From an uncultured Halobacteriovorax sp. (GTDB lineage Bacteria > Bdellovibrionota > Bacteriovoracia > Bacteriovoracales > Bacteriovoracaceae): a stretch of 64,000 nucleotides of DNA. A program made the position numbers and the translations under genes. The DNA lies in contig CAJXVS010000003.1 in assembly GCA_913061265.1 (NCBI GenBank), positions 372,001-436,000 of the forward strand, in the 5' to 3' direction. Each line of letters starts with the position of its first letter. The stretch's first letter is position 1. The notes under the pieces were generated by a model, which saw only the letters and a list, made by a program, of their open reading frames with translations, was not told where the DNA came from and ran no database searches. Of the stretch, positions 13,411 to 64,000 are shown one piece after another.

Positions 13411-13462
13411 AATCATCCTCGGTCGACCAGATTACTCAGTAAGTTCTTGAAATTGAAGTTAA

Positions 13463-13491
13463 TTAATAAAGCCTAGCTAGAGTAACGTCAA
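13463..13491 (-). promoter_or_regulatory. Promoter of the atp F1/b operon
   Basis: On the minus strand TTGACG (13486-13491), a 17-base spacer and TATTAA (13463-13468), with transcription expected near 13456 and the atpF' start at 13410. A short inverted repeat (CAAGG/CCTTG) overlaps the -35 side. This lets the ATP synthase genes be expressed apart from the parAB-bactofilin genes upstream. Confidence 0.7.
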
Positions 13492-13545
13492 GGACGTTTT
13501 GCCCTTGTAATTAAGATTAAACAAGTTGGATTTTTACGCTCTGTT

Positions 13546-48200: not shown

Positions 48201-48788
48201 TTCATCAAAGTAATTAAATCTTACGGCTAACCCTGATGATGTAAAAATATCAAAAACTTCACCTTTTTTTGAAAATGTTCCAGGTTCTTCTACAGTAATT
48301 GATGAGCTATAGCCGAGGGATACTAGTTTTTTAGACAACTCATGGGGCGAAATGATGTCTTCTTTTTGGATGAGGAACTGATTTTCAATAAAAAATGTTT
48401 TAGGAGGAAGCTTTGATAGCGCTCCGCGCACACTACAAACCACAAGATCTGGAGAATTCTTTGAAACTAATTTCTCTAAGATTGAAAATTTTCTGCGAAG
48501 CATAAAGTCCGAAGAAATAAATTGCTGATATGGGCTAAGTTCATCTTCTGGGAAAACTTCAATATTGAGAGCCGGATTTGAATCTTCTAAAGCTTCACCA
48601 ACTTGCTCTGCACAATCTTGGGTGGGGCAAATCAAAATGCCCGGAAAGCCTTTTAATGCCCCCTCTTGCTTGATATCGCCAAGAATAAAACTAAACTGAG
48701 ATTCATTTAGACCGCTAATCCTTAGATTTTCGTTCTGAGAATTGACCCATTGAGAAATTTTTTCATTGATGTGAACGAAGTGTGTCAT
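45300..48788 (-). CDS. mfd: Transcription-repair coupling factor Mfd
   Basis: DNA translocase that removes stalled RNA polymerase and recruits UvrA. The 1162-residue protein has the UvrB-like N-terminus, the RNA-polymerase-interaction domain starting YVIHSEHGLGKYLGLE, helicase motifs (VCGDVGFGKTEIA, VDEEQRFGVGHKEKLK, TATPIPRTL, RGRIGRSEKKAYAYF) and the C-terminal TRCF domain (PTRLKYYKLLSN). Complete, normal length. It stands next to the operon carrying uvrA and is divergent from nuoA. Confidence 0.97.
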   Translation of the reverse strand: MTHFVHINEKISQWVNSQNENLRISGLNESQFSFILGDIKQEGALKGFPGILICPTQDCAEQVGEALEDSNPALNIEVFPEDELSPYQQFISSDFMLRRKFSILEKLVSKNSPDLVVCSVRGALSKLPPKTFFIENQFLIQKEDIISPHELSKKLVSLGYSSSITVEEPGTFSKKGEVFDIFTSSGLAVRFNYFDELIEKISQIDLETQKSIKDIELDEILIGPSTGILSKTPYSTNLRNNVPMPGPKFKLRFEYRKNIFQELNDGNLFNNYSRFFPLFFNEDETCSLFDYFNSNFIPIFYKSREIDLNQSELAESLRVEYDSQLNDLESDNISPAPHCFYFEDLANLSNKKAILAEDLEFSEIEDISNKMSLSIEPTPMYLKRSIGLKDSKKENLKLIFEFLSDEFKHSGKILISTKTKSAKKEIDYLIETFDLNRNLLERVSFIDSYISNGFFYSSEKLLVLSEGDLFSVKRKKTQKQTNFNPDLFAEQIATLKKNDYVIHSEHGLGKYLGLESMEAGGIKNDFLVIEYASKDKVYVPVYKISLIQKHADSTAGCSLGNLRSAKFSQTKKRAKESAKRLAFDLLKLQAERQTQKAHSYSEPDHYYNEFELAFPFEETPDQRSATDAVITSMRKPAPMDHLVCGDVGFGKTEIAMRAAFLAALDKKQVAVLVPTTILALQHFNSFVKRFSEFPLRIDFLSRFKTPKEVKEIKEKLKTGKIDIIIGTHKLLSSTIEYKDLGLVIVDEEQRFGVGHKEKLKTLKATVDFLTLTATPIPRTLQMAFLGLRDLSLIKTPPPKRQSIKTYIIKDDTQTIQAAIKKELSRGGQVFIVHNKVHDIEQFTAKIRELVPEAKIMFAHGQMSEKDLESRITSFYEGKYQILISTTIIESGIDIPNANTMIIDRADTFGLSQLHQLRGRIGRSEKKAYAYFLVPQDRALTPVAEKRLKAMQTYADIGSGFHIASADLEIRGAGEVLGANQSGHLEAVGLELYMELLKEAIGELKGEESSVHSKVEVSTPFSCYIPNFYIEDGPTRLKYYKLLSNSNSEEELTDLVDEVQELFGPSPAEFENLGLLLKSRIVLKGFGIKSINVAGFDINITFEKSFLDKESSIKTKMLDYFLSRPKTYKFSPDYKVFYQAKEKVSLEGLYEFSKNIAEQILPS

Positions 48789-48926: not shown

Positions 48927-49367
48927 ATGTCATCTCATAACCTCGACGTGTATATGCCGATTCTAATTTTAATTGGAATTGGTATTGCGTTGGTATTTGG
49001 CGCCATTTTATTTGGCAAACTAATTAGACCCCACAACCCGAGTAGGCTTAAAGAACAAGCTTATGAATGTGGAGAGGATCCGGTAGGTGTTGCCTGGTCT
49101 AACTTTAATGTGCGCTTTTATGTAGTTTCACTAATCTTCATCATCTTTGATGTTGAGAGTGCGCTAATGTTTCCAGTCGCAAGTGTCTTCAAGAAATTTA
49201 ACGAAATAGGAAGAGGTGGAATTATACTTTGCACTTTTATCGTATTCGTAATGATTCTTGTTTCGGGCGTAATTTATTGCTGGAGAAAAGGTGACCTCGA
49301 TTGGGTCAAGAGTTTTCATCTCAACCTTGATGAGAGCAGTGAGAAAAATACTCAGGAGGCTTCATGA
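48927..49367 (+). CDS. nuoA: Complex I subunit NuoA
   Basis: Small membrane subunit at the quinone-site end of complex I. The 146-residue product has three helices and the family motifs RLKEQAYECGEDPVG and FDVESALMFPVA, both intact. The ATG at 48927 is chosen because GGAG lies upstream at normal distance; the frame opens at a TTG 33 bases earlier. First gene of the membrane-arm operon; overlaps nuoH by four bases (ATGA). In most bacteria nuoB would follow, but it is absent here. Confidence 0.95.
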   Translation: MSSHNLDVYMPILILIGIGIALVFGAILFGKLIRPHNPSRLKEQAYECGEDPVGVAWSNFNVRFYVVSLIFIIFDVESALMFPVASVFKKFNEIGRGGIILCTFIVFVMILVSGVIYCWRKGDLDWVKSFHLNLDESSEKNTQEAS

Positions 49368-50551
49368 ACGAAGGCTTAATTTCTTTTCTTTCTCAGTTTG
49401 ATGGACATAAAGCATTTGTAAAAATGATTTCCGATTTTGCTGGGACAGATGCAACTTCTACAATCTCATTTTTTATATACTTAGCAGCTTGTTTAGCAGT
49501 TGTCGGTGTTATGGCAACAATCGGTGGGCTTGGGACTTATGCTGAAAGAAAGATTTCAGCAGATTTACAAGCAAGGCAAGGACCGAACAGAGTTGGTCCT
49601 TTTGGTCTTCTTCAAATGTTAGCTGATGGTGTGAAGATGATTCTTAAGGAAGACATCATTCCTTCCGCTGCAGATAAGCCGATGTTTATTATGGCACCTA
49701 TGCTTTGTATTGTTGGTGTTTTTGGAAGTTTGGCTGTTGTTCCCTTTTCAAGTGGATTTATCCTTTCAGATTTAAATGTGGGTGTTTTCTATCTATTAGG
49801 AATATCTAGTCTTGTGGGCGTAGGTATCTTTATTGGTGGTTATAGTTCTAACTCTAAGTGGTCAATGCTTGGTGGGATGAGAGGAGCCTCTCAGATTATC
49901 AGTTATGAAATACCAGTTACACTATCTATTATTGCTATTGTTGTTCTATCAGGTGGAATGAGTTTTGGTACATTAATCGGTGGACAAGGTGGTTTTCCTC
50001 ACGAGTGGTACATCCTTCACAATCCTTTTACCTTTATAGCGTTCTTTGTCTATTTTATTGGAGCTCTCGCAGAAACGAACAGAGCTCCATTTGATTTACC
50101 AGAAGCGGAATCAGAATTAGTTTCTGGTTACCATACTGAATATACCGGAATGCGTTTTGCATTCTTTGCATTAGCCGAATACATCGAAGTCTTTGTTGTT
50201 TGTGGTGTTGCAGCGGCATTATTCTTTGGTGGATGGAAAGTTCCTTTTGACTTAGGAACTGGGGAAGCATTCTCAGCTCTTCCTCCAATTATTGCTAAAA
50301 ATATCGGACAAATTCTTCAGTTAGGCTCATTTTTTACTAAAACACTTCTCCTTTATTATGTTGTGATTTGGATTAGATGGACTTTACCAAGGTTAAGAGT
50401 GGATCAGCTTATGACTCTTTGCTGGAAGTATTTAACTCCTATCGCTTTATTTAATTTAATAATGATTGCAGTTTGGGCCTACGCATTTGACGGAAAAAGT
50501 ATGTTTGAGCTTTTTACTGCAATGGGTTCTGGTTCCACTGGTGGACATTAA
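49364..50551 (+). CDS. nuoH: Complex I subunit NuoH
   Basis: Links the membrane arm to the quinone cavity. The 395-residue protein (about 50 longer than usual at the N-terminus) has TYAERKISADLQARQGPNRVGPFG (quoted in part), ADGVKMILKED and the charged loop ALAETNRAPFDLPEAESELV, with all conserved acidic residues. It follows nuoA directly; nuoI, usually next, is absent and nuoJ comes 14 bases later. Confidence 0.96.
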   Translation: MNEGLISFLSQFDGHKAFVKMISDFAGTDATSTISFFIYLAACLAVVGVMATIGGLGTYAERKISADLQARQGPNRVGPFGLLQMLADGVKMILKEDIIPSAADKPMFIMAPMLCIVGVFGSLAVVPFSSGFILSDLNVGVFYLLGISSLVGVGIFIGGYSSNSKWSMLGGMRGASQIISYEIPVTLSIIAIVVLSGGMSFGTLIGGQGGFPHEWYILHNPFTFIAFFVYFIGALAETNRAPFDLPEAESELVSGYHTEYTGMRFAFFALAEYIEVFVVCGVAAALFFGGWKVPFDLGTGEAFSALPPIIAKNIGQILQLGSFFTKTLLLYYVVIWIRWTLPRLRVDQLMTLCWKYLTPIALFNLIMIAVWAYAFDGKSMFELFTAMGSGSTGGH

Positions 50552-50565
50552 TTTAGAGGTATTTT

Positions 50566-51102
50566 GTGTTTGATTCAGTTTTATTTTTATTATCAGCGAT
50601 CCTCATTGTAGTAGGTAGCTTAGGTGTTCTCTTTATAAAGGAGAATATCATGCATGCCTGCGTTGCTCTTTTAACAGCACTCTTTGGAGTAGCTGGGGCT
50701 TACGCTGTTTTAGGAGCGGACTTTCTTGCTGCAACTCAATTGGTTGTTTATGTCGGTGGTGTCGTAATCTTGATGCTTTTCGCTGTTATGTTAACTGGTG
50801 GCGGAGCGGCTAACGAGAATAAGTTTGGAATAGAGAAGATCCCTGCTATGGGTAACGTGAAAACTTATATAATTGCCGGTGTAAATGTTTTGGTTATTTC
50901 ATTAGTCGTTATAAAAATAATGGCCAATGTAATGCAGGACTATAAAGCAGTTGCTCTTCCAGCTTATGAATCAACTGTTGAAAAGCTTGGAACACTATTA
51001 GTAACTGATCATGTTTTGGCTTTTGAAGTATCTTCGATTCTTTTACTAGGCGCTCTTGTTGGAGCGGCTGTGATTGCAAGACCAATAGGGAGTACTAAAT
51101 AA
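50566..51102 (+). CDS. nuoJ: Complex I subunit NuoJ
   Basis: Five-helix subunit next to NuoK that takes part in conformational coupling. The 178-residue protein has the third-helix motif VVYVGGVVILMLFAVML and the C-terminal helix LAFEVSSILLLGALVGAAVIAR. Starts with GTG after AGAGGT. Overlaps nuoK by one base (TAATG). Confidence 0.93.
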   Translation: MFDSVLFLLSAILIVVGSLGVLFIKENIMHACVALLTALFGVAGAYAVLGADFLAATQLVVYVGGVVILMLFAVMLTGGGAANENKFGIEKIPAMGNVKTYIIAGVNVLVISLVVIKIMANVMQDYKAVALPAYESTVEKLGTLLVTDHVLAFEVSSILLLGALVGAAVIARPIGSTK

Positions 51103-51407
51103 TGAATTCAATGTACCCATTTTTATTCTTATCATTTTTTATGTTTGTGATTGGCCTAGGTGTCATGATCGCAAGAAAAAATATTATCGCAATGCTTTTA
51201 GGAATTGAATTGATCTTAAATGCGTCGGCTCTTAATTTTGTAACTTATACAAGATTTGTAAATCAAAACTTAGACGGACATATAATGTCCCTCTTTATAA
51301 TCATTATTGCTGCAGCTGAAGCAGCAGTAGGGTTAGCAATTGTTATTAGATTTTTTCAAGTTAGAGAAAGTATTCACATTGATGATGCAGCTCAACTACA
51401 GGCATAG
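51102..51407 (+). CDS. nuoK: Complex I subunit NuoK
   Basis: Three-helix proton-path subunit. The 101-residue protein keeps the conserved Glu of helix 2 (MLLGIELILNASALNF) and of helix 3 (IIAAAEAAVGLAIVI). Normal length. It lies between nuoJ (overlap) and nuoL (9 bases). Confidence 0.95.
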   Translation: MNSMYPFLFLSFFMFVIGLGVMIARKNIIAMLLGIELILNASALNFVTYTRFVNQNLDGHIMSLFIIIIAAAEAAVGLAIVIRFFQVRESIHIDDAAQLQA

Positions 51408-51416
51408 AAGGATTTT

Positions 51417-53600
51417 ATGGATTATACAATAACAACTGTTGCATGGATCGTTTTACTACCATTCTTTGCATTTGTGATTAACGCCTTTATCGTAAAAAAG
51501 GTACCCAATGTTGCAGTCGGAATAAGTTGTGCTGCTATTTTTGGTTCTTTCTTACTTTCTGGAAGAATCTTTTTTGATTTTGTTTTTGGAAAGTATTCTG
51601 CTGATTATCATGTTCATAAAGTATTCAATTGGTTTGATCTTAATGGTGGTGGCCAAGAATTTGTAATGAAGATGGGAATTTACATCGATAATATGACGGC
51701 CATGATGCTTTTTATGGTTACTGGTGTAGCATTTTTGATTCATATCTTTTCAACTTATTACATGAAGGAAGACACAAGATACGGACGTTTCTTCGTTTAC
51801 ATGTCTCTCTTTACTTCAGCTATGCTTGGGCTAGTTCTAAGTGATAACCTGATTTCATTCTTTATCTTTTGGGAATTAATGGGATTTTGTTCATACAGTC
51901 TTATTGGTTTCTATTACGAAAAAGAAGATGCTGGAAACGCCAACATCAAGGCCTTTATGACGACAAGGATTGGCGATGTCTTCTTCTTACTCGGTATTTT
52001 GGCTATCTACTTTCAGGTAGGATCTTTTACCTTTGTAGATATCTACGCAGCTATATCTTCAGGTATGTTTACCGATGCTACAGTTACTATCTTTGGCTTT
52101 GGACTTCCGTTAGCCTTAATCGCGAGCTTAGCGATATTTATGGGAACAATCGGAAAGTCAGCTCAATTTCCTCTTCAAGTTTGGTTGCCAGACGCGATGA
52201 TGGGGCCAACTCCTTGTTCAGCGTTGATTCATGCAGCGACAATGGTTGCAGCAGGAGTTTATTTATCTTTAAGAATGTTTCCTTTATATGAGATTCATCC
52301 TTTTATGCTTCCTTTTATAGCAACAATAGGCGGAATAACAGCTCTTGGAGCGGCTACAATTGCTTTGGTTCAAACAGACTTCAAAGCAGTTTTAGCGTAT
52401 TCAACTATTTCTCAACTTGGATATATGGTTCTTGGAGTTGGAGTTGGTGCTTATAATGCTGCGTTTATGCACCTAATTACTCACGCAATCTTTAAAGCAT
52501 GTCTTTTTCTAGCGGCTGGATCAGTAATTCATTCGTTACATGATCACCATACTCATCAACATGTTCAAGAAATGCCTCGAATGGGTGGCTTGAAGAATAA
52601 AATGAAATTCACATGGTTTGCTATGTGGTGTTGTACTTTTGCTATTGCAGGAGTTCCATTTTTCTCAGGGTTTGTTTCAAAAGATAGAATTCTAGGTGAT
52701 GCTTTGGTTATGGCCATGCATAATCCTTACTACTGGTTCCCTGCGACTTTAGGCTTTATCGGAGCTCTATTAACTGCTTTTTACATGTGTAGAATGATGT
52801 TCTTAGCCTTTCATGGTGAGCCAAGAGATAAGGATCTTTATGATCATATTCATGAGGAAAAGTTTTCTTGGAACAGAAACCTTCCTCTTCTTATTTTAGC
52901 TCTTTTCACCTTAGGTGTTTGGTTTTCAGGATCTTTAACGGGTCAGAAACTAGTAAAAGTAGCTTCTGATAAAGTTGAATGGTTCGACACATTAATTGTT
53001 AAGCCAAAAACAGAGAATTTTAAAAACTACCAAAAACAGAACTGGGGACCCGTTGATATTAAAAGTACTATCAGTTTTCCAGTTTCAAAATATGATTCAA
53101 ACCATGGTCTTAGTGAAGAAGAGGCACATCATGTGCATAGTGTTCACAGCATTGGCGCCATCGCTTCAATCATTATTGCTTTCAGCGGTATCTTTATAGC
53201 TTTCATGATGTACATCAGAAAGAGTTGGAATCCAGGCTGGTGGGTAAATACTTTCTCTACTTGGTACAGAGCTCTTCAGAATAAGTATTACTTTGATGAT
53301 ATGTACATCAAGGGAATTATCCAAAAAGGATTGATTCCAGTGAATAACTTTTTAGCCTGGGTTGATATGGGTATTTATGACAAATACGCTATTGATGGTT
53401 GGGAAAAGGTTAACCGGTGTGCCTTCACTGTCTCAAAATGGTTCGACAATATCTTCGTCGACACTATTGCAGTAGATGGTACAGGGGCGAGCGTTAGAGC
53501 ATTCAACGTTATTTTAAGAACTTTTCAGTCAGGGAAGATTCAGTTTTATATCATTATGATTATTCTGGTTCTTTCTAGTTATATTTGGTCATTAGCTTAG
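51417..53600 (+). CDS. nuoL: Complex I antiporter-like subunit NuoL
   Basis: Terminal proton pump with the long lateral helix. At 727 residues it is about 100 longer than usual, due to a His- and Lys-rich insert near residues 500-600. Key motifs are intact: the helix-5 glutamate in FFIFWELMGFCSYSL, the helix-7 lysine in GTIGKSAQFPLQVWLPDAM, the helix-8 HAIFKACLFLAAGS and AGVPFFSGFVSKDRIL. C-terminal DGTGASVRAFNVILRTFQSGKIQFY is typical. Serves below as the template for the 58194-59648 gene. Confidence 0.96.
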   Translation: MDYTITTVAWIVLLPFFAFVINAFIVKKVPNVAVGISCAAIFGSFLLSGRIFFDFVFGKYSADYHVHKVFNWFDLNGGGQEFVMKMGIYIDNMTAMMLFMVTGVAFLIHIFSTYYMKEDTRYGRFFVYMSLFTSAMLGLVLSDNLISFFIFWELMGFCSYSLIGFYYEKEDAGNANIKAFMTTRIGDVFFLLGILAIYFQVGSFTFVDIYAAISSGMFTDATVTIFGFGLPLALIASLAIFMGTIGKSAQFPLQVWLPDAMMGPTPCSALIHAATMVAAGVYLSLRMFPLYEIHPFMLPFIATIGGITALGAATIALVQTDFKAVLAYSTISQLGYMVLGVGVGAYNAAFMHLITHAIFKACLFLAAGSVIHSLHDHHTHQHVQEMPRMGGLKNKMKFTWFAMWCCTFAIAGVPFFSGFVSKDRILGDALVMAMHNPYYWFPATLGFIGALLTAFYMCRMMFLAFHGEPRDKDLYDHIHEEKFSWNRNLPLLILALFTLGVWFSGSLTGQKLVKVASDKVEWFDTLIVKPKTENFKNYQKQNWGPVDIKSTISFPVSKYDSNHGLSEEEAHHVHSVHSIGAIASIIIAFSGIFIAFMMYIRKSWNPGWWVNTFSTWYRALQNKYYFDDMYIKGIIQKGLIPVNNFLAWVDMGIYDKYAIDGWEKVNRCAFTVSKWFDNIFVDTIAVDGTGASVRAFNVILRTFQSGKIQFYIIMIILVLSSYIWSLA

Positions 53601-53626
53601 TTTTATTAATATAAAGGAGTAGTGCT

Positions 53627-55177
53627 GTGCACGGTACATCAACATTGTTAAATTGGATTCTTTGGACACCGTTTATAGGAGTAGTAGGAGTAATTCTACT
53701 TCCATACCTATTTTCAAAAGATAAGCAGGATAATGTCGTCCGCTGGTGGAGTTTGTTAAACACTATCGGTTCGATGATTTTAGCTGTTGTCTTGTATATG
53801 AAGTTCGATACTAGCGTCCCTGGAATGCAGGAACAATTCGCTGTTAATATCGCATGGATTAAGCAATTTAATATCTTCTACTCTTTAGGTGTAGATGGAA
53901 TTAGTCTGCCAATGATTATGCTTGCGGCCCTCTTGTTCTTCTTATGTATCTTAAGCTCTTGGACAATAACCAAGTCAGTAAAAGGCTACTTCGCTCTTTT
54001 TCTAATGCTCCAAGGTACTGTTTATGGAGTCTTCTTAGCCTTAGACTTCTTCCTCTTTTATGTTTACTGGGAAGTAATGCTTCTCCCTATGTTTTTCTTA
54101 ATTGGAATTTGGGGTGGAGAGAATAGAGAGTATGCTGCTGTTAAGTTTTTCCTTTATACATTCTTTGGATCAATCTTAATGTTAGTTGGTATCATTGCTC
54201 TTTATTATGCATCTGGAAAAGGTGTTGATAGTTTCAATATCCTGGCCTTATCTGGTGGTAAGTTTATTGATAATCAGGTTCATATGTTTGGTACGGTCTG
54301 GTCCTTTTCAAAAGTTTTCTTTTGGGCCATGTTTATAGGTTTTGCCATTAAGGTTCCGGTCTTCCCGTTCCATACTTGGTTGCCACATGCTCACGTTCAA
54401 GCCCCTACTGCAGTTTCCGTTATCCTCGCAGGTGTTCTTCTTAAGATGGGTACTTATGGATTTCTAAGAATTGCTTATCCTATCTTTCCACAAGCTTCAG
54501 TTCAGTTCGCTGATTGGATCGCGGTCTTAGGATTGATTAACGTTATCTATGGAGCACTTTGCGCCATGGCTCAAACGGATGTTAAAAAGCTCGTTGCATA
54601 CTCTTCAGTATCCCATATGGGTTTTGTAATGCTTGGGCTTGCTGCAATGACAGTACATGGAATGAACGGTGCTGTTCTTCAGATGTTTAACCACGGTACT
54701 TCAACAGCTATGATGTTCTTATTGATCGGTATTCTTTATGAAAGATCACATCACAGATGGATTGTTAGACCTGATGGAACTAAAGGTTTCGGTGGTCTTT
54801 ATACTCAATTACCAAAATATTCGATTGTCTTTATCATTGCTATGTTCGCATCAATGGGACTTCCAGGACTTTCAGGATTTATCTCTGAAGCATTAATCTT
54901 CCTAGGGATTTACCAGAAGTACACAACGATTACTGTGTTAGCTCTTTTTGGACTACTGATCGGTGCTGCTTACCTTCTTTGGATGTTTAAGAGAATGTTT
55001 TTTGGAGAAGTTATCGAAGAATGTAAGTCTTATACGGATATGAATGCCAGAGAGATTTTTTATATGGCCCCACTTTGTGTTGCCGTGATTGTTTTTGGAA
55101 TTTATCCAACTCCAGTTTTAGATATTATGAAATCAAGCGTAGGACAACTCGTTAGTCTATTAGCTCAATTTCAATAG
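53627..55177 (+). CDS. nuoM: Complex I antiporter-like subunit NuoM
   Basis: Second proton pump of the arm. The 516-residue protein has LFYVYWEVMLLPMFFLIG (helix-5 Glu), IKVPVFPFHTWLPHAHVQAP (helix-7 Lys), GVLLKMGTYGF (helix-8 Lys) and GLPGLSGFISEALIFLG (helix-12 Glu), all expected residues. GTG start after AAGGAG. Between nuoL (26 bases) and nuoN (8 bases). Confidence 0.96.
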   Translation: MHGTSTLLNWILWTPFIGVVGVILLPYLFSKDKQDNVVRWWSLLNTIGSMILAVVLYMKFDTSVPGMQEQFAVNIAWIKQFNIFYSLGVDGISLPMIMLAALLFFLCILSSWTITKSVKGYFALFLMLQGTVYGVFLALDFFLFYVYWEVMLLPMFFLIGIWGGENREYAAVKFFLYTFFGSILMLVGIIALYYASGKGVDSFNILALSGGKFIDNQVHMFGTVWSFSKVFFWAMFIGFAIKVPVFPFHTWLPHAHVQAPTAVSVILAGVLLKMGTYGFLRIAYPIFPQASVQFADWIAVLGLINVIYGALCAMAQTDVKKLVAYSSVSHMGFVMLGLAAMTVHGMNGAVLQMFNHGTSTAMMFLLIGILYERSHHRWIVRPDGTKGFGGLYTQLPKYSIVFIIAMFASMGLPGLSGFISEALIFLGIYQKYTTITVLALFGLLIGAAYLLWMFKRMFFGEVIEECKSYTDMNAREIFYMAPLCVAVIVFGIYPTPVLDIMKSSVGQLVSLLAQFQ

Positions 55178-55185
55178 GAAACTTT

Positions 55186-56652
55186 ATGCAAATGTCATAT
55201 TTAGCAGCATTAGGTCATTACATTCCAGAGTTAATAGTTTGTATCACTATGGTAGGATTATTAGTTTTGGAAGCCACCTATAGTAAAGATGAGCATGGTA
55301 GAGGGCTATTATACTCTGGTGCGATGATTGGTTTATTTATCGCCTTTTGTGTATCTGCAGGATCATTAACAGATCTCCCTCTTCCTATTTTTACAAATTC
55401 AGTTGTAATCGATCCTTTTAGCGGATTTTTAAAATGTATTATGATTCTTGGAACAATGGGAGCTATTTACTTATCTTCTCAATCTAAAGATATTTATAAT
55501 AACTTAAAGGCAGAGTTTGTCATTATGGCGACTGGTGTCCTTATGGGTGGGATGTTATTGGCTTCGGCAAATAATATGCTAATCCTTTATTTGGGAATCG
55601 AAACACTTTCTATCTTAAGTTATGCCCTTGCCTCTTTTAGAAAAACAGACGAACGTTCAAGTGAAGCTGGATTAAAATATGCTCTTTATGGCGGTGTTTC
55701 TGCAGGAATCATGCTCTTTGGAATGAGTCATATCTTTGGAGTTTTGGGGACTATTCAATTCAGTGAGATTGGACCAGTACTAAATAACTTAACGGCAACT
55801 CAGTTATCAATTTTAATACCTTCTTTTCTAATGTTCTTTGCTGGACTTGGTTATAAGTTAGCATGCGCTCCTTTTCATATGTGGACTCCAGATGTGTATG
55901 AGGGATCTCCATTACCCGTTACAGCTTTCTTTGCCATTGTTCCAAAAATGGCTGCTCTAGGGGCTTTAACAAGAGTGACCTTTGTCTTTTTTCAAGAACC
56001 AGGCTTACTACAAGAAAGCTGGGTAGGTATTATGCAAGTGATTGCAGCCCTTACTATGACTGTTGGAAATGTAGGTGCTATCGGACAGCGATCTGTTAAA
56101 AGAATGTTAGCGTACTCTTCAATTGGTCACGCTGGTATGATGATAATGGGCGTTGTAGTTATAAATGAAGTTGGCGCACGTGCCATTCTTTTTTATGGAT
56201 CAACCTACTTATTTATGACGTTAGTAGCCTTCTTAATCACTTCATTTGTTAATGATAAATACGGAAATGACCACTTTGAAAGGTTTAACGGATTCATCTA
56301 TAGGTACCCAATGATGGCCATTGCTATGGCCTTAGTAATGTTTTCATTAGCGGGCGTTCCTCCATTAAGTGGATTTGTCGCAAAGTTTAACATCCTGTCA
56401 GCGGTGGTTGAGAAGAAGTACTATATGTTGGCCCTTATTGGTGGTCTTAACTCTGTCGTCTCCCTTTATTACTATCTAAAAATAGTTAGATTAATGGTTT
56501 TCAAGGAGTCCGAGTCATCAGAAAAGATCGAAGGTCTTGGATTTATGAATCAGGCGATTGTAGTGGCCCTAACGGTCCCAGTAGTACTTTTAGGTATCTT
56601 CTGGTCTAAATTGATTGTCCTGGCAGAATCAGCGAAGATTCTGATTCAGTAA
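55186..56652 (+). CDS. nuoN: Complex I antiporter-like subunit NuoN
   Basis: Third proton pump, next to NuoK. The 488-residue protein has LYLGIETLSILSYALASF (Glu of helix 5), KLACAPFHMWTPDVYEGSP (Lys of helix 7), KRMLAYSSIGHAGMMIMGV and AGVPPLSGFVAKFNIL (Lys of helix 12). Normal length and complete. The shadow cluster begins 4 bases after its stop. Confidence 0.96.
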   Translation: MQMSYLAALGHYIPELIVCITMVGLLVLEATYSKDEHGRGLLYSGAMIGLFIAFCVSAGSLTDLPLPIFTNSVVIDPFSGFLKCIMILGTMGAIYLSSQSKDIYNNLKAEFVIMATGVLMGGMLLASANNMLILYLGIETLSILSYALASFRKTDERSSEAGLKYALYGGVSAGIMLFGMSHIFGVLGTIQFSEIGPVLNNLTATQLSILIPSFLMFFAGLGYKLACAPFHMWTPDVYEGSPLPVTAFFAIVPKMAALGALTRVTFVFFQEPGLLQESWVGIMQVIAALTMTVGNVGAIGQRSVKRMLAYSSIGHAGMMIMGVVVINEVGARAILFYGSTYLFMTLVAFLITSFVNDKYGNDHFERFNGFIYRYPMMAIAMALVMFSLAGVPPLSGFVAKFNILSAVVEKKYYMLALIGGLNSVVSLYYYLKIVRLMVFKESESSEKIEGLGFMNQAIVVALTVPVVLLGIFWSKLIVLAESAKILIQ

Positions 56653-56656
56653 ATGA

Positions 56657-56911
56657 ATGTTAATAACTAATGAAAATATTCTAGTTATATTGTTATTGGT
56701 AAGTTTTATTTTTATTCCTCGAATAAGTAAGAAACTTGCCAATAAACCATCTCTAAGTAAAAAGCTTAGTTATCGAAAATTTACATTACTCACCCTCATT
56801 ATTTCAATTTCTATGTATGGGTCTAAATTTAGTAACTTATCTGAATTTAAAGCAATACTCATAGCCATTCTTTTGTTGCCTCTCGCACAAGGGATCTTTA
56901 ATGAAAATTGA
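56657..56911 (+). CDS. Shadow complex I subunit A' (NuoA-like, reduced)
   Basis: An 84-residue membrane protein with two hydrophobic segments, first of seven coupled genes behind nuoN. Alone it would be unrecognisable. Position and layout match NuoA: one helix, a basic loop (KKLANKPSLSKKLSYRK, compare RPHNPSRLKEQAYECG in NuoA of this window), then a further helix. The NuoA cysteine and the FDVE acids are absent, and the third helix is lost or fused. The next gene starts inside its last 11 bases. As NuoA homologue the sequence evidence is weak; the synteny argument carries it. Confidence 0.5.
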   Translation: MLITNENILVILLLVSFIFIPRISKKLANKPSLSKKLSYRKFTLLTLIISISMYGSKFSNLSEFKAILIAILLLPLAQGIFNEN

Positions 56912-57560
56912 ACTTAATCTATTTATCGAAATATTATTTGGATCGCTGTTTCTATTTTTAGAAATAGGATTCTTAAACAAAGTAATCGATTTTAAAGGTA
57001 ACTCTTTATATTCTCTAAAGAAGACTTTCGGAAACAATCTAAGCCTGATTCTTACACCAAAGAAATATATTATAGATGCACTTGTCTTTATCTTTATTGC
57101 ATTGAGCTCCACATTTTTATTAAATCAAGATGGAAAGCTACAACAAGTCCTCTTACTCTTTTCTATAGCGGATCTCTTGATTAACCAGAAGCAGACCTCA
57201 TTAGCCCACCTATCTAACACATTACTGATTTGTGTCTTTATAGGACTGAATAATGTAGCCCCTGTGAGTTTACTTATTGTTCAACTCATCTTTTTTATAT
57301 TTTATGCAATCAACAAAGGAAAAGATTTGAAACTAGTTTCAGTAGCTTCTCACTTAGTCTTTTTTCTGAGTTGTTTGCTTAGCCTAAATGTTTCAGCTGA
57401 ATATCTTGTTTTTACTAAATCTTTTATTTTTATAACCTTTCCACTTATCTACTTAATAATTCTTCACCTTGTAAGGTCATCACCCACCTTAAAACCCTTT
57501 AAGGTTGATAGTATTATGTGGACATTAGTTATGCTCGGTTCATTGAAGGGGATAATCTAA
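56901..57560 (+). CDS. Shadow complex I subunit H' (NuoH-like, reduced)
   Basis: A 219-residue protein with about six helices, against 395 in NuoH. Residues 35-51 (SLYSLKKTFGNNLSLIL) line up with GLLQMLADGVKMIL of NuoH, and the C-terminus (FTK at 171-173, then KVDSIMW at 201-207) lines up with FTKTLLL and RVDQLMTLCW near the NuoH end. The loops that bind quinone and the peripheral subunits (GPNRVG, AETNRAPFDLPE) are missing, so it cannot form a normal quinone site. AAGGGATC precedes the ATG; its stop overlaps the next start (TAATG). Confidence 0.6.
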   Translation: MKIELNLFIEILFGSLFLFLEIGFLNKVIDFKGNSLYSLKKTFGNNLSLILTPKKYIIDALVFIFIALSSTFLLNQDGKLQQVLLLFSIADLLINQKQTSLAHLSNTLLICVFIGLNNVAPVSLLIVQLIFFIFYAINKGKDLKLVSVASHLVFFLSCLLSLNVSAEYLVFTKSFIFITFPLIYLIILHLVRSSPTLKPFKVDSIMWTLVMLGSLKGII

Positions 57561-57997
57561 TGGCTTCATCACTTTATTTCGGCATAGTGTTATTTCTAGT
57601 TGTTTTAACTTTTATATACAAACTAGATAATTTCATAAAAATGGGAATCCCTTTTTTATTGATAGGGGTTACGTTTATCACTGAAACAGTAAATCAATCA
57701 GAAACTTTCTTTATTACTATTTTCTTCATCCTTCAAATCTTTTTGAGTTTAAGCTTGCCAGAAAAAACCAAAAGTAAAATCAAGACTTTTAAGATTATTC
57801 CGCTAGCTATATTTATCATGAGCATTTTTTCAATGATAATCTACCTTGATATAAAAAATGTCGATTCAATAAACTCAATAACAAATAACATTAAGAATAC
57901 TCTTAGAGCCGAGGGAGATATTTATATAGTTCTTCTTTTGTTAGTTTTAGTTCTTTTTAGTTCAATAAATACTAAGAAGGATAGAAAGTGGAGTTAG
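57560..57997 (+). CDS. Shadow complex I subunit J' (NuoJ-like)
   Basis: A 145-residue protein with about five helices. Its C-terminus (SITNNIKNTLRAEGDIYIVL and on) matches the NuoJ layout STVEKLGTLLVTDHVLAFEV followed by a leucine-rich last helix. The glycines that make the pi-bulge of NuoJ helix 3 (YVGGVV) are replaced (FFITIFFILQIFLSLSL). I start it at the ATG that overlaps the previous stop (TAATG at 57558-57562) and not at 57518. It overlaps the next gene by 10 bases. Confidence 0.55.
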   Translation: MASSLYFGIVLFLVVLTFIYKLDNFIKMGIPFLLIGVTFITETVNQSETFFITIFFILQIFLSLSLPEKTKSKIKTFKIIPLAIFIMSIFSMIIYLDIKNVDSINSITNNIKNTLRAEGDIYIVLLLLVLVLFSSINTKKDRKWS

Positions 57998-58197
57998 TAT
58001 TATGGTGCACTTCATTTATTGTATTAGCTTCTTTCTTATTTGGAAGGATCTCTAATTCCGCAGTTATTGTTTTTCTTTTTAGTCCTCTTTATTATTACTT
58101 AATAGTATTTAAGACAGGAGACACTCGTGCTTTGATCTTAATTGTGGTGTTTATAATCCAGTACTTATTTTTCAGAGAAAGCGAGGAGTGTAAGTGA
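57988..58197 (+). CDS. Shadow complex I subunit K' (NuoK-like, truncated)
   Basis: A 69-residue protein with three short hydrophobic segments; NuoK here has 101. The end VVFIIQYLFFRESEE lines up with GLAIVIRFFQVRES of NuoK. The helix-2 glutamate of NuoK falls on FLFSPLYYYLIV, where it is absent, and the segment with the second glutamate is deleted. GTG start with AAGGAT upstream; the stop overlaps the next GTG (GTGA). Confidence 0.5.
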   Translation: MELVLWCTSFIVLASFLFGRISNSAVIVFLFSPLYYYLIVFKTGDTRALILIVVFIIQYLFFRESEECK

Positions 58198-59648
58198 TCT
58201 TAACTCTCACACTCTTATTTCTAATTGCAATCATAGATAGTTTCTTTAGAGATAGTTTTAATAAAAAATCTAAAGAAGCTGCCCTGATAGCCTCAGTTGT
58301 GGCATTAGGACTTAGTTTATTTTCTTCGACTCAGAGTATAAACCTTAGTGGATTTATTGAGTATGAAGAATTTAATATCTTAAAGACATTATTTATTTTT
58401 GTTTTATTCAGCTCTATTCTTTTCTCTAGTAATAAAGAAGATATATTCAAGAAGGTTGTCGGTGTATTCCTCTTAGCTTCCAACAATATTGAATTTCAAG
58501 CTAGCTTTCTCTTGGCCTCTCTTATTGTTGAGGAAATTTTATTCTTAAAAAAGAGTAATCATAAGGTAAATGCTTTATTCATATTGATAGTTTTATGTTC
58601 ACTGACTGGCGTTTTTAAAGGCTATGGAACCGGTATTATGGCCCTTATCTTCTCAATTAAACTATTGTCAAAAGAACGTGGAAAGGTTTTTGTTCCTTCC
58701 CCCACTAAGGCGGTATTTTATAGTATTGTTATATTGGTTTTTAGCAAAAATAACCCATCAATTATATTTCTAATTCCCTTAGCTCTAGTTAGTACTCTCT
58801 ATCTTTACAGTTTTGGAAGAAGACTTCTTAGCGATAATTTAGAGACCTTTTCAAGTTATCTGACTCTATCCTTACTTTATCTGTCCATCTTGGCCTTAGT
58901 AGGTTTGAGTCAATTGTTTTATTTTGTTGGGATAATTCTTTTTATAGCAGAATTGATTAGGAAAAATGAGAAGCATGAGAGTTTTCATTGGAACCTCTTT
59001 TTTATGCTCTTTTTCTTTTCTCCTCCATTCGGAATTGGCTATATGTCAAAATCTGAAATATTTGAAAGTCTAATTTCAAAATCTTGGTTTCTTTTGATTG
59101 CTGTCAGTATAACAATTTTAATCCTCCAGTTATTTGTTATTCTCATTTCTACTAAGTCTAAACTCAATTTTTTAGATTCCTTGAAAAAATTTAAAATTAG
59201 CGCTGATCTTAAGGGATCAATCTTTATTATCATCAGTATATTACTTTCCTTTCTTTTTTTACCTGATAATTGGATAGATGATTATGGAAATATCTTTAAC
59301 AGTAATTTTCTACCTAAAGCAGAAGTTGAGATAAAGAGATATGGTGTTGGTTACTATCTATTTTGGGCTGAATTAGTAATATGGTTCTCAACGATAGTTC
59401 TTTTCTATAAAACTAGCCCTGGTTTTTTTGAGAAAATTTATTTTAAAAGTATTTCTTTAGTCTCTCAAAAAAATTCTGGTAGCCCAAAAAAGCTAAAGAA
59501 AAACATAGGGCCACCTTTAAAAGATAATAAATTAACCTTAAGAAATACTGTTTCTTCTCTTGAGATAGGAAGGAATAGACTTCCTGCTCAATATTTTAGT
59601 TTGATGATGTTAATGGTAATGGGTTTACTATTGGCAGGTTTAATTTGA
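58194..59648 (+). CDS. Shadow complex I subunit L' (NuoL-like)
   Basis: A 484-residue multi-helix protein, the clearest of the set. Aligned by eye to NuoL of this window: KEDIFKKVVGVFLLASNN to the helix 4-5 region, with a Glu at 113-114 (LIVEEILFL) at the helix-5 glutamate; PSPTKAVFYSI (168-178) to GPTPCSALIHAAT; DNLETFSSYLTLSLLYLSIL (214-233) to TDFKAVLAYSTISQLGYMVL; SPPFGIGYMSKSEIFESLI (276-294) to GVPFFSGFVSKDRILGDAL. The helix-8 HAIFK motif is gone. It has a soluble basic segment near residues 440-460 where NuoL has its lateral-helix end. GCGAGGAG precedes the GTG start. Confidence 0.78.
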   Translation: MILTLTLLFLIAIIDSFFRDSFNKKSKEAALIASVVALGLSLFSSTQSINLSGFIEYEEFNILKTLFIFVLFSSILFSSNKEDIFKKVVGVFLLASNNIEFQASFLLASLIVEEILFLKKSNHKVNALFILIVLCSLTGVFKGYGTGIMALIFSIKLLSKERGKVFVPSPTKAVFYSIVILVFSKNNPSIIFLIPLALVSTLYLYSFGRRLLSDNLETFSSYLTLSLLYLSILALVGLSQLFYFVGIILFIAELIRKNEKHESFHWNLFFMLFFFSPPFGIGYMSKSEIFESLISKSWFLLIAVSITILILQLFVILISTKSKLNFLDSLKKFKISADLKGSIFIIISILLSFLFLPDNWIDDYGNIFNSNFLPKAEVEIKRYGVGYYLFWAELVIWFSTIVLFYKTSPGFFEKIYFKSISLVSQKNSGSPKKLKKNIGPPLKDNKLTLRNTVSSLEIGRNRLPAQYFSLMMLMVMGLLLAGLI

Positions 59649-60559
59649 GTAAATTTTCTTTAAATAAATTATCTATCGTTGTGATGAGTTTAATTACGGT
59701 CTTGTCATACCTGTTCTATGGGAAGCCAGAAATAATCTTTATTTTTACACTGCTTATTTCCCTTCTACATAATGATGACGAAAAAGAGCTCTATAAGAAT
59801 TCAATTTTTACTATTGGAATCTTTACCTCTGTCATTATATTTTCTTTTTTACCTATAGCTGCACTCTTACTCTTTGAGTTAGCTAGAATTTTTAATAAAG
59901 GGTACAAAAGTTTAGATAAAGGCCTCTTCACTCTTGTCCCAATAGTAACCCTAGTTTTCGCCAGCCTTAGTCTTAAGAACGTCGAACTCAATTATTTAGT
60001 TTATTATTTTGGAATTTCATTTTTTCTAATATCCATTGAATCAATTAGAGGATCTAGAGATTGGCCTTCATTGGCGGCGATTCTCTATTTTGCCGTTGGT
60101 AGTAATTTGACGGTTCTGAGTTATTCAACTTTATGGATTTTGATAACGTATTTAATATTTATTGTTATAGGTAAGCTTATAAAGCGGCAGGATATATTTT
60201 TCAATTATATCGGCTTCTCCAGCTTAGGAATGGTTTCACTGTCTTTTTCTAATGAGAAAGTTTTTTCTTTCATCATCTCTTCTATTGCTTTCGAGTATCT
60301 ATCAAGATCAAAGAAAGTACGACCTAGCCTATTGCAAAGTATTTATATATTCTCAATTATTCTCTTCTCGAAGAGCTACTTTAAATCTTTTGAGAAACTT
60401 GAAAGCATATACCCTGTTTTATTCTTATTACTACCTCTCCTTTGTGCTCAAAGTCTTGTTGCAAGGGATAAAGAGCATTCATCAAAAAAAATAAATTCGA
60501 CTAAGACACTTTTGGCCATGATAGCCTATTTGATAGGAGTTTTTGTTTATGCTTATTAA
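59645..60559 (+). CDS. Shadow complex I subunit M' (NuoM-like, reduced)
   Basis: A 304-residue membrane protein (NuoM here has 516). LLFELARIF (75-83) falls on the helix-5 glutamate motif YWEVMLL; DWPSLAAILYFAVGSNL (139-155) on QAPTAVSVILAGVLLKM, where the helix-8 lysine is lost; and IFIVIGKLIK with FFNYIGFSSLGMVSLSF (185-201) on NVIYGALCAM and KLVAYSSVSHMGFVML. The IKVPVFPFHTWLP segment and the helix-12 region are missing. TTG start overlapping the L' stop, with GGCAGG upstream; overlaps N' by 11 bases. Confidence 0.65.
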   Translation: MSKFSLNKLSIVVMSLITVLSYLFYGKPEIIFIFTLLISLLHNDDEKELYKNSIFTIGIFTSVIIFSFLPIAALLLFELARIFNKGYKSLDKGLFTLVPIVTLVFASLSLKNVELNYLVYYFGISFFLISIESIRGSRDWPSLAAILYFAVGSNLTVLSYSTLWILITYLIFIVIGKLIKRQDIFFNYIGFSSLGMVSLSFSNEKVFSFIISSIAFEYLSRSKKVRPSLLQSIYIFSIILFSKSYFKSFEKLESIYPVLFLLLPLLCAQSLVARDKEHSSKKINSTKTLLAMIAYLIGVFVYAY

Positions 60560-61712
60560 CTCCTGGTTTATTTACTATTTTGTCTTCTATCTTTTTATGT
60601 ATCAGTTTATGTATTCGTTCGTTGGTAGGAGGCTAAATTTAACTTTTGTCACCCTATCAAATATCCTTTTTGGGGCATTAATATTTCACCAATTTAGGGA
60701 CAGCTTAGGATTTGAACGGTTTATTTTCATAATTAGTTTAATTGCTGGAAACCTATTAGTGGTAAGGCAGAACTTCAAATTCAATGACAAACTATGGTCA
60801 TTAGTTTCACTCAAGCTTCAATTGGGAACCTTGTTGATTTCTCTTCCTAATATAGTCCTTTCCTTCCTGGGTTTAATAATAATTCTGTTTTCATTCGGAA
60901 GAAATATTGACCGAAAAAAGGAATTCGTCCTTAACTCTGGATTAACGATTTGGTTAATAGTCTTTTCGTTATTGGTATCTTCTTGGTCCCCTGATTTTGA
61001 TATTGCCTCAATTAAGACAATTATTAATGAGAGGTTATTCTTAGTGGCATTTTTATTCTTCTTTCTTATTTACGGACTATGTAGGTGTTTTTACGAAGTA
61101 ACCTTGCCAGAGGATTCAGACAATTCAATTAGTCATAAACTTAATTATTCTACTTGGGTATGGATTGGTATTTTTAACAATTTTTTCATTCTCCTTTTCA
61201 ATGATCTAGGTATTCTTAAAGAAAATGCGAATATTATAACCAGTGCTGGATCAGTTATATTTCTCTTGATCCTGGTTCTACTGTTTCTCAAGATTGAAAA
61301 TGTAAAAACTATTTCAAAGCAGATTTCATTTACAATAATTACACAGGCAACAATTATATCTTTTTTAATTATAGATCACTCAGAAATCTATTTGAGTTGG
61401 CTTATTTACACTAACTCTTGTTTAATATTAATGATGGCCTTTTTTAAAGGTGAAAATATAAATAATCTTCGCTCTAACCGAAATAAACTCAAGTTCTTTA
61501 CTCAAATAATGACGGTCATATTACTATTAGGTATGCCGTTCACACCATGGTTTGATAGTAATTTAGCACTCCTAAAGCACTTAAAAGAGACAAACACCCC
61601 CTTTCTTTACTTAAGTGCTCTTCTCTTTTTGGGAGTACGTTATAGGCAGAATGTTGTCTTACTTATTAAGTATATCCGACAAAACTACTTTAAAGAGTCC
61701 AAAGCTTCCTAA
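60549..61712 (+). CDS. Shadow complex I subunit N' (NuoN-like)
   Basis: A 387-residue membrane protein. FTIITQATIISFLI (261-274) and the following IYTNSCLILMMAFF (286-299) align with LAYSSIGHAGMMIMGV and FYGSTYLFMTLVAFL of NuoN. LLLGMPFTPWFDSNLALL (325-342), then the helix ending VVLLIKYIR, aligns with FSLAGVPPLSGFVAKFNILS and SVVSLYYYLKIVR. The NuoN lysine of AKFNIL becomes Asn in DSNLAL. ATG at 60549 taken because it overlaps the M' stop; a TTG six bases earlier is possible. Last gene of the coupled series, 37 bases before the TPR gene. Confidence 0.7.
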   Translation: MLINSWFIYYFVFYLFMYQFMYSFVGRRLNLTFVTLSNILFGALIFHQFRDSLGFERFIFIISLIAGNLLVVRQNFKFNDKLWSLVSLKLQLGTLLISLPNIVLSFLGLIIILFSFGRNIDRKKEFVLNSGLTIWLIVFSLLVSSWSPDFDIASIKTIINERLFLVAFLFFFLIYGLCRCFYEVTLPEDSDNSISHKLNYSTWVWIGIFNNFFILLFNDLGILKENANIITSAGSVIFLLILVLLFLKIENVKTISKQISFTIITQATIISFLIIDHSEIYLSWLIYTNSCLILMMAFFKGENINNLRSNRNKLKFFTQIMTVILLLGMPFTPWFDSNLALLKHLKETNTPFLYLSALLFLGVRYRQNVVLLIKYIRQNYFKESKAS

Positions 61713-61749: not shown

Positions 61750-64000
61750 GTGAATAAGTATAGAGTAAAACTACATAGTGGAAGGATCGTAGGGCCGGTC
61801 ACACCTAAGCAGGTTGGCGAACTCTTCGCAAAGGGTCATGTCGACGGTAAAGAGAACTTTCAAGTTTTTCCAGCAGGTGATTGGGGCTCGCTTAATAACT
61901 TTGATGAACTTAAAAAGTCCCTAAAAGCCCAAATAATAAATAAAAAAGAAGCTACAGTTAAGAAAGACTCTGGTGATAATACAATCGCAAGAATCAAGAT
62001 TCCAAAAAAACTAAAACCCAAAGAAGAATCTACTTTAGAAAAGGAAATCCCTAAAAGTTCCGACGATGGTTTTAGTGAATTTCAGTTCGAGAAAAAAACT
62101 TCAACCAAAATAAACTACAAGGAATTAGAGGAAAAATATTCTGATGTAGAGGAAGACGAGAATGACAATTCTGACGAAGGCGTTGAAAAAACGAGGCTTA
62201 TTAGAATTCCACCTAAACAAGAAAATATTGATAAAACAAGAGTGGTTAATCCTAAGCATATATTTGCAGAGGAAGCGATAGAAGAAACTGAAGATGAAGT
62301 TGTTGAGGAAGAACCAGTTGAAGAGCAGATAAGTGTTGATGAGAAAACAGGTTTTGTAGATCTCAATGAAATAATGAGTGATATTAAATCTATAGCTCAA
62401 GTAGCTGAAGAGGAGCTTGAGAGAGCGGCTCAGAAAGAAAAACCTGTAGAAGAAGTCGTTGAAGAAAAAGTAGAAAAGAAAAAAGAGCCAAAAAAGGACA
62501 ATAAACGGACAGTTATTGTAGGCGTATTGGCCCTCCTCCTACTGGCTTTCATGTTCGGAACAGATGATAGTTCGAAAGATAAAACACCAAAACCAATTTA
62601 CGTTACTTACAAATTCCCAGTGACGAAAAAGAACGCTAATGAAGAACTAAGTAAACAACAGTTCAAAGAGGCATTAGTCTTTTATTTGAAAGACAATTAT
62701 GTTTCTAAAATAAAAGCTTCAAAACTTTTTTTAAGATCCTTAGAAAATAAGTATGATGGAAATCCCGCCCTAGGGATGTTGGTAAGGACTTACGCTGAGC
62801 TATTACCTGAAGCAAAAAACCCAAAAAAGGCAAAGAATACTTTATTTAGATTGATCCAAGTTTCACAAAATAAAAGGCTAAAGGATAGTGATCTAACAAT
62901 TGGGGTTGCGAAGTTTTATGCTCACTTAGAAAAATATTCAAGTGCAGAGAGGGTTATTGAAAGTTACCTTAGGATAAATAAAAAGAATCTGCAGATCTTC
63001 ACATATTATCTTTATATTCTTGTCGAAAATGGAGAATTCGTTAAGGCTAAAAGAATTTATAAAATACTTGAAGACTTAAAAGGAAAAACGGCAGAAACCT
63101 ATTTTTATATGGCTCATTATCTTCGAGCAAATGATAACTTCCAAAAGCAGAGAGAACTTCTTAAAAAGGCTGTAGAGATAGAGCCAAGGTCGGTAAAGCT
63201 TTGGTTAGCTCTTGGTGAAAATTTATTCGCAGAAGGTGAATATGCCTTATTAGATAAATGCCTAGAGAAGATTAAGAACTTAAACATGGAGAGGTCTCCT
63301 CATTACTATTCTAGATATCTCGAATACAGAGGAATGCTAAAGGCGCTTAATGGAGAGATTGAACTTGGCGTAAAGTACTTAAAAAAGGCACTCAAATATA
63401 GAGAAAGTAATGCTCTGAGATCTAAGCTCGCTAGTTTAGATCAAGTAGGTATTGAATCAGTTCAGATCCTAATCCAAGAAAGTAAGATTAGGGATTCAAT
63501 GAGAAAAGCGAGAGAGTTTCAACGGAAGAAGAATTGGGAAAAAGCATTTAGATTTGCTATCGAGGCTGTGGACTTAAACGAAAACTACATCCCTAGTCAG
63601 CTTTTACTTGCTGATATTCAAACTCAACGAGGCTATTATCAAGCAGCACTTGAGACGACTTCTTATCTAAAAAAAGAGTTTCCAGCAAATGCTGATGTTG
63701 CTTATTCTTATATTTCGGCCCTAATGAAAGTTGAAAAGATGGATGTAGCGAATCAACAAATTAGTTTTATTTCAAACGAAACTAAGTTTTTTCTACTTCC
63801 TAAGTTTCAGGCATTGTTAGGAAAGTATTGGCTAAAGAAGAATAATTTCTCATTTGCTATTCAATACTTTCAAATGGCGATTAAGAAAGACCCTCTTAAT
63901 GACGAATATTATTATATCTTGGCAAAGGAATTCTTTAGAAAAAAACGCTTTAAAGATGCTAAGCAATTTCTTTCGAAGTGTTTAGATTTAGATCCTGATA
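61750..64000 (+). CDS. GYF_2-like / transmembrane / TPR protein (3' end cut by window edge)
   Basis: At least 750 residues, open to the window end. Residues 1-50 (YRVKLHSGRIVGPVTPKQVGELFAKG, quoted in part, then FQVFPAGDWGSL) look like a GYF_2/DUF4339-type domain. Residues about 60-245 are acidic and Lys/Glu-rich without fold. One membrane helix follows at about 254-272 (VIVGVLALLLLAFMFG), then many tetratricopeptide-like repeats to the end (LWLALGENLFAEGEY, AIQYFQMAIKKDPLNDEYYY). Architecture predicts a cytoplasmic adaptor head and a periplasmic TPR array. The GTG at 61750 is the first start after an in-frame stop; no strong ribosome site. Not obviously related to complex I. Confidence 0.75.
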   Translation, partial: MNKYRVKLHSGRIVGPVTPKQVGELFAKGHVDGKENFQVFPAGDWGSLNNFDELKKSLKAQIINKKEATVKKDSGDNTIARIKIPKKLKPKEESTLEKEIPKSSDDGFSEFQFEKKTSTKINYKELEEKYSDVEEDENDNSDEGVEKTRLIRIPPKQENIDKTRVVNPKHIFAEEAIEETEDEVVEEEPVEEQISVDEKTGFVDLNEIMSDIKSIAQVAEEELERAAQKEKPVEEVVEEKVEKKKEPKKDNKRTVIVGVLALLLLAFMFGTDDSSKDKTPKPIYVTYKFPVTKKNANEELSKQQFKEALVFYLKDNYVSKIKASKLFLRSLENKYDGNPALGMLVRTYAELLPEAKNPKKAKNTLFRLIQVSQNKRLKDSDLTIGVAKFYAHLEKYSSAERVIESYLRINKKNLQIFTYYLYILVENGEFVKAKRIYKILEDLKGKTAETYFYMAHYLRANDNFQKQRELLKKAVEIEPRSVKLWLALGENLFAEGEYALLDKCLEKIKNLNMERSPHYYSRYLEYRGMLKALNGEIELGVKYLKKALKYRESNALRSKLASLDQVGIESVQILIQESKIRDSMRKAREFQRKKNWEKAFRFAIEAVDLNENYIPSQLLLADIQTQRGYYQAALETTSYLKKEFPANADVAYSYISALMKVEKMDVANQQISFISNETKFFLLPKFQALLGKYWLKKNNFSFAIQYFQMAIKKDPLNDEYYYILAKEFFRKKRFKDAKQFLSKCLDLDPD

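Follow-up and report, generated by a model that had tools for sequence, protein, structure and literature searches.

A putative second complex I membrane arm, shrunken and retained behind nuoN in the Bacteriovoracaceae

The window considered here, a stretch of 64,000 nucleotides from an uncultured Halobacteriovorax sp. that is part of contig C3 in a 3.97 Mb genome (99.75% complete; G000), carries two sets of membrane protein genes in tandem. Set 1 is the ordinary nuoA-H-J-K-L-M-N membrane arm of a complex I that lacks NuoE, F and G; set 2 consists of seven open reading frames (ORFs), lying head to tail with mostly overlapping stops and starts, which begin 4 bases beyond the end of nuoN at position 56652 (Table 1). 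We conclude from comparative analysis that set 2 almost certainly encodes the membrane arm of a complex I derivative, in the order A-H-J-K-L-M-N, as the initial annotation of the window had proposed and as graded relatives and profiles now agree in indicating. That this is the reduced arm of a second complex I, which would now be a redox-silent platform for a lipoprotein, is a reading to which we give about the same credence as to its negation.

Identity of the seven proteins

None of the seven window proteins (designated A', H', J', K', L', M' and N'), taken alone, has a significant match in Pfam or NCBIfam, and annotation pipelines therefore miss complexes of this kind. A first scan of genome contigs with N' returned nothing because this protein is too divergent; the alignment of the GYF-like/TPR protein encoded behind set 2 was too variable for scanning, and a fragment of NuoN served as the query instead. 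In a comparison of the window with 38 relatives, the same genes follow nuoN in the same order in 29 of the 38 informative family genomes, window included, a few of these blocks being cut by contig ends and one (G006) having only five genes; nine genomes pass directly from nuoN to the GYF-like/TPR protein, and one was uninformative. The layout is thus a recurrent one in other Bacteriovoracia, well beyond what chance would give, a point the initial annotation had put forward, and in the relatives it ends on the right with a GYF-like/TPR protein of 1,000-1,100 aa.

The sizes of the A-H-J-K-L-M-N products form a series running from 84-219-145-69-484-304-387 residues in the window to 121-349-172-98-675-493-460 in G015. 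Hidden Markov models (HMMs) of set 1 recognise full-size subunits in G015 and, within the limits of their contigs, in G021, G029 and G032, and the signal of these HMMs fades through G034, G054, G041, G036 and G022. The full-length relatives match NuoA/H/J/K/L/M/N strongly (E to 1e-111), and the alignment of NuoH is a graded series in which decay is visible residue by residue. The C-terminal stretch ...KVDSIMW... of H' has been kept, its canonical counterpart being RFRYDQLM. Fewer transmembrane (TM) helices are scored in the window than in canonical proteins for H' (about 5 versus 8), L' (about 12 versus 17 in G015) and M' (about 7 versus 13 in G015); for A', 2 are scored in the window and 3 are predicted in most relatives.

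Profiles built from shrunken members only, all canonical and intermediate members being excluded, correctly identify the canonical counterparts of H' (98.7% probability), J' (91.6%) and N' (88.3%), and an iterated profile search reaches the N' of the window at E 3e-4; iterated HMMs from canonical set 2 find none of the other six window proteins. The homology first suggested for H' and N' from alignments by eye is thereby upheld, as is the placing of J' by its position. For K' (35%) and A' the profile matches are weak, though both are best on the diagonal and in the expected position. For L' and M', which had also been aligned by eye with NuoL and NuoM, there is no direct sequence signal in the window, and both are assigned by position, size, helix count and graded relatives.

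A partial set 2 was also seen in G006 (L062) and at L197, where A', H', J', K' and an L' of 214 residues are present and M' and N' are missing at the locus.

A peripheral cluster with a lipoprotein gene

The window genome has two NuoD genes. One belongs to a plain nuoB-C-D-I cluster (G000:C7:161-164 kb), which is evidently the partner of set 1; the other encodes a fused NuoCD in a lipo-nuoB2-nuoCD2-nuoI2 cluster (C7, 319-323 kb). The B, CD and I genes corresponding to set 2, which the initial annotation had taken to have left before the operon was duplicated, are thus still in the genome and would lie in this separate cluster with a lipoprotein gene. A search of the whole 99.75% complete genome for NuoE and NuoF found neither. 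In G015 and G032 the second cluster is lipo-B2-CD2-E-F-G-I2 and encodes canonical proteins; together with a full-size set 2, these genomes therefore appear to have a complete NADH-type complex I. The lipo-B2-CD2-(E,F,G)-I2 cluster or remains of it were found in 38 genomes, including decayed relics of E, F and G in G007 and G052 and a partial set of them in G028, G030 and G045. The parallel decay of the peripheral cluster and of set 2, together with G076, in which nuoC, E and F are located inside the second membrane set, suggests that the two belong together. The C-terminal GE[LIV]DR end of NuoCD2 is mostly kept.

Three genomes, G025 (L124), G048 (L125) and G003 (L127), have a CD2 cluster and no set 2 behind nuoN, their membrane arm having been either lost or moved.

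The lipoprotein (about 500 aa and cysteine-rich; L096:7085-8734 and relatives) begins with a lipobox-like sequence, its cysteines are conserved, and no other product of the peripheral cluster is kept so well. Of 97 genomes searched, 49 encode it, and apart from one weak match these all belong to the family Bacteriovoracaceae; no relative was found in searches of Pfam, NCBIfam and PDB. Its gene is already upstream of B2 in the intact G015 and G032, and it remains alone, the second complex I being gone, in G008, G019, G031 and G053. A conserved peptide in the upstream extension of its ORF, MCLPISPPG, was discarded as it overlies a tRNA-Leu gene on the opposite strand.

Loss of active sites, ligands and subunits

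The quinone-site His of NuoD (E. coli CD position 224) is replaced by Asn and the Tyr by Met in the window genome, and the quinone motifs of NuoH are missing in the window. The His is changed in nearly all degraded members and kept in G015, G029 and G032; in G021 it is already Gln, with a membrane arm of full length and a cluster without E, F and G. As for the proton path, the check covered five residues of NuoN2, L' and M' not being alignable: as read from a distant alignment, E133, K158, K217, K247 and K395 are still present in intact relatives, and the window has other residues at all five positions.

G000, G001, G002 and many other genomes have retained every cysteine ligand of the iron-sulphur (Fe-S) clusters N6a, N6b and N2 in NuoB2 and NuoI2. 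Ligands have been lost from NuoB2 in G006, G011, G022, G028, G034, G036, G048 and G056, and from NuoI2 in G006, G017, G022, G036, G051 and G057, among others. In G013, G016, G020 and G026 the cluster is reduced to lipo and CD2, with nuoB2 and nuoI2 missing there, and no Pfam-recognisable NuoB protein exists anywhere in the genomes of G010, G016 and G044. The shrunken NuoI2 of G022 (L106 10438-10749, plus strand) and G036 (L113 9298-9609, minus strand) has lost the 8-Cys ferredoxin pattern and has two CxxC pairs resembling a zinc ribbon, which makes a swap of Fe-S for zinc possible.

Origin of the two membrane sets

In other families of the phylum both membrane sets are of full length and often in tandem. 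A tree of NuoH+L+M+N (a quick tree, unrooted and with long branches) joins the set-1 types of several families in one clade and leaves the set-2 types outside, with E. coli between them. These full-size pairs and the tree indicate that the pair is old and not a recent duplication: the two types probably separated before the family arose, and set 2 would have come down from a distinct NADH-type complex I of long standing, as its membrane arm. Set 2 as a recent tandem duplicate of set 1 was rejected, as it fails to group with the set 1 of its own family in this unrooted tree. The proposal that the whole membrane operon was duplicated after B-G and I had left is likewise contradicted by a split that predates the family, by full-size tandem sets elsewhere and by G076.

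A third, complete nuoA-N operon occurs alongside a degraded set 2 in G006, G024, G036 and G043. Seven family genomes (L229, L230, L231, L232, L233, L234 and L235) show an extra, complete-looking nuoA-N operon elsewhere, mostly without Na+-NQR.

Association with Na+-NQR

Na+-NQR accompanies the degraded complex almost without exception and is lacking where the complex is intact. Of 37 genomes that lack an NADH-type nuo operon, 36 have NqrF above the cut-off, versus 2 of 10 that possess one (Fisher p 1e-6, from a hand tally uncorrected for relatedness). In the window genome lipo is preceded, at a distance of 7 kb, by nqrF and an ApbE gene, and nqrF lies about 1-40 kb from the lipo gene in 17 genomes. 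The presence of Na+-NQR in Bacteriovorax marinus had already been noted (PMC4014512). The simplest reading of this distribution is that another NADH:quinone oxidoreductase took over and so allowed the second complex I to decay.

Independence from set 1

Set 2 occurs without set 1 at the locus in ten further genomes (G010, G012, G016, G018, G020, G023, G037, G038, G044 and G055), which still have all seven genes of set 2 followed by the TPR gene, mostly beside mfd as in the window; set 2 is therefore no accessory of the normal complex I. The initial annotation had allowed for an accessory module of the real membrane arm, and an accessory or regulatory role for set 2 in the complex of set 1 would agree with the adjacency of the two sets and their probable co-transcription. 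Given its persistence in those ten genomes, its own peripheral arm and the many genomes with set 1 and no set 2, we regard such a role as very improbable.

Selection and repeated shrinkage

For pairs of intact relatives the evolution of set 2 is as slow as that of set 1, with a ratio of nonsynonymous to synonymous substitution rates (dN/dS) of 0.01-0.12. Where the pair is shrunken, dN exceeds that of nuoN by a factor of about 2 to over 10 and dN/dS, where computable, is about 0.1-0.8, synonymous sites being near saturation; lipo, B2, CD2 and I2 have values of 0.03-0.30. In simulation, much less neutral change than this would be enough to interrupt the long frames. Selection still keeps the frames of set 2 open, and strict neutrality is excluded; the target of that selection may be other than function, for example translational coupling. 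On a FastTree tree of set 1 from 75 loci, the minimum number of changes is 5 for shrinkage and also 5 for loss.

One way to account for this pattern is that the second complex I became useless when Na+-NQR arrived and is slowly on its way out, its frames persisting through translational coupling to the TPR gene or through the toxicity of broken membrane proteins. Many lineages show shrinkage by degrees, evolution is fast, several lineages have ended by losing the complex and G006 has a partial set, all of which would be expected of such a relic. However, all seven frames are open across species with saturated synonymous sites, the unlinked CD2 cluster is also kept (dN/dS 0.03-0.3) with no TPR gene behind it, and the block outlives set 1, so that we consider a mere relic unlikely, if still worth keeping in view. 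The retention of the complex despite its losses suggests a job other than respiration.

A possible non-redox platform

The scheme that we favour begins with an ancestral NADH:quinone oxidoreductase composed of B2-CD2-E-F-G-I2 and A2-H2-J2-K2-L2-M2-N2. Once Na+-NQR or another complex I had assumed the oxidation of NADH, the NADH module and the quinone site would have been lost first, then the residues of the proton path together with a large part of the membrane arm, and some lineages would also have given up Fe-S ligands or the subunits that bear them; the pattern of loss is seen among living species and the order is our reconstruction. The remainder comprises NuoCD2 and seven short membrane proteins, accompanied by a conserved lipoprotein whose gene precedes nuoB2. 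It might be a redox-silent platform of the inner membrane that holds the lipoprotein, or signals to it, at the cell envelope. We favour a platform because the lipoprotein is restricted to the family, is the best kept and was already upstream of B2 in intact relatives; this non-redox role, taken by itself, seems to us plausible but somewhat short of an even chance.

Several points weigh against this reading. NuoB2 (4 Cys) and NuoI2 (8 Cys) of the window genome keep all their Fe-S ligands, so electron transfer is possible there. Several lineages no longer have the complex at all, so its function is dispensable to them. L' and M' are tied to NuoL and NuoM neither by sequence nor by fold in the window: AlphaFold2 models from shrunken-member alignments reach a predicted local distance difference test score (pLDDT) of 49 for L' and 57 for M', and these unreliable, low-pLDDT models have no PDB match with E <0.001. 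Finally, the assembly of the platform and its contact with the lipoprotein are putative.

The retained ligands leave room for a residual redox device in the lineage of the window, in which N6a, N6b and N2 would pass electrons from a donor other than NADH to a new acceptor without pumping protons; G000, G001, G002 and many others have the 4 NuoB2 and 8 NuoI2 ligands in place, and both proteins are still recognisable. But the quinone His and Tyr are gone, the window genome has neither NuoE nor NuoF, and the complex persists in sister lineages that have lost clusters or subunits, which together make such a device improbable.

Should the platform reading be correct, complex I would have been converted, several times in parallel, to a multi-subunit assembly in the membrane that neither carries out redox chemistry nor pumps protons and is selected for an envelope function unrelated to respiration, a class not described before; we put this forward tentatively. 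In G013, G016, G020 and G026 the peripheral cluster of such an assembly would be down to NuoCD2 and the lipoprotein.

Comparison with known complexes

No description of such a reduced second complex I was found in the open-access literature, in keeping with the initial annotation, which knew of no complex with this composition. The direct ancestor would be the bacterial respiratory complex I (NDH-1, NuoA-N) of the E. coli type with fused NuoCD, which has the same subunits and gene order; the set-2 type is still canonical (NDH-1-like) in G015, G029 and G032. Unlike NDH-1, set 2 has no NuoE, F or G, its quinone site is destroyed, its proton-path residues are lost and its arm is shortened, and some of its relatives have also lost the Fe-S proteins. 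The Fqo/Fpo type of complex I (here set 1 with B-C-D-I) is, like set 2, without NuoEFG, but keeps the quinone site, Fe-S clusters and full antiporter subunits, which set 2 does not. The Mrp antiporter and other relatives of NuoL-M-N have membrane subunits related to those of set 2, which differs from Mrp in its full A-H-J-K-L-M-N set and NuoCD partner and in the loss of the ion-path residues checked. The closest parallel on record is offered by Acetobacteraceae in their deranged bc1 complex, a respiratory complex kept after loss of cofactor ligands and proposed to stabilise complex I (PMC10715153). Set 2 shares this retention after ligand loss; unlike the deranged bc1 complex, it is kept where no other complex I was found, and it shrinks far more and does so repeatedly.

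Complex I is usually regarded as a single, tightly coupled machine. The living species of this family present a readable series of losses, affecting the NADH module and the quinone site, the proton path and the membrane arm, and the Fe-S proteins, through which a core of NuoCD and seven membrane subunits is kept. From this series it may be asked of what use complex I is when no electrons pass and which of its subunits keep the structure joined. Cultured predators carry set 2: Bacteriovorax sp. BSW11_IV (locus L163) has the shrunken form, and the start of set 2 was seen in DB6_IX (locus L152). Deletion tests are therefore feasible.

Gene layout in the window and minor observations

Table 1. Genes of set 2 and their neighbours in the window, with assignments by the evidence named
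Feature	Position	Strand	Remarks
mfd	45300..48788	-	Left-hand neighbour; marks the locus in genomes without set 1
Set 1, nuoA-H-J-K-L-M-N	48927..56652	+	Ordinary membrane arm of an EFG-less complex I
A', putative nuoA2 remnant	56657..56911	+	84 aa; position, graded relatives
H', putative nuoH2 remnant	56901..57560	+	219 aa; graded alignment, shrunken-only profile
J', putative nuoJ2 remnant	57560..57997	+	145 aa, 5 TM helices; position, profile match
K', putative nuoK2 remnant	57988..58197	+	69 aa; position, weak best-on-diagonal profile match
L', putative nuoL2 remnant	58194..59648	+	484 aa; position, graded relatives
M', putative nuoM2 remnant	59645..60559	+	304 aa, TTG start; position, graded relatives
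N', putative nuoN2 remnant	60549..61712	+	387 aa; iterated profile match
GYF-like/TPR protein	61750..64000, continues beyond the window	+	Conserved right-hand neighbour of set 2

The closest sequenced relative in the comparison is Halobacteriovorax sp. SP2999 (G001), whose set-1 NuoN is 83% identical to that of the window and whose L' is only 27% identical. In the N' frame of this genome (L037, reverse strand, oriented about 13290-13510), membrane-like sequence extends upstream of the first ATG, GTG or TTG start, and the start codon may be unusual or mis-called. The GYF-like/TPR protein, about 1,040-1,070 aa in relatives, is present also where set 2 is absent; it has (at about 1,050 aa) one predicted TM helix and its gene always lies behind nuoN or set 2.

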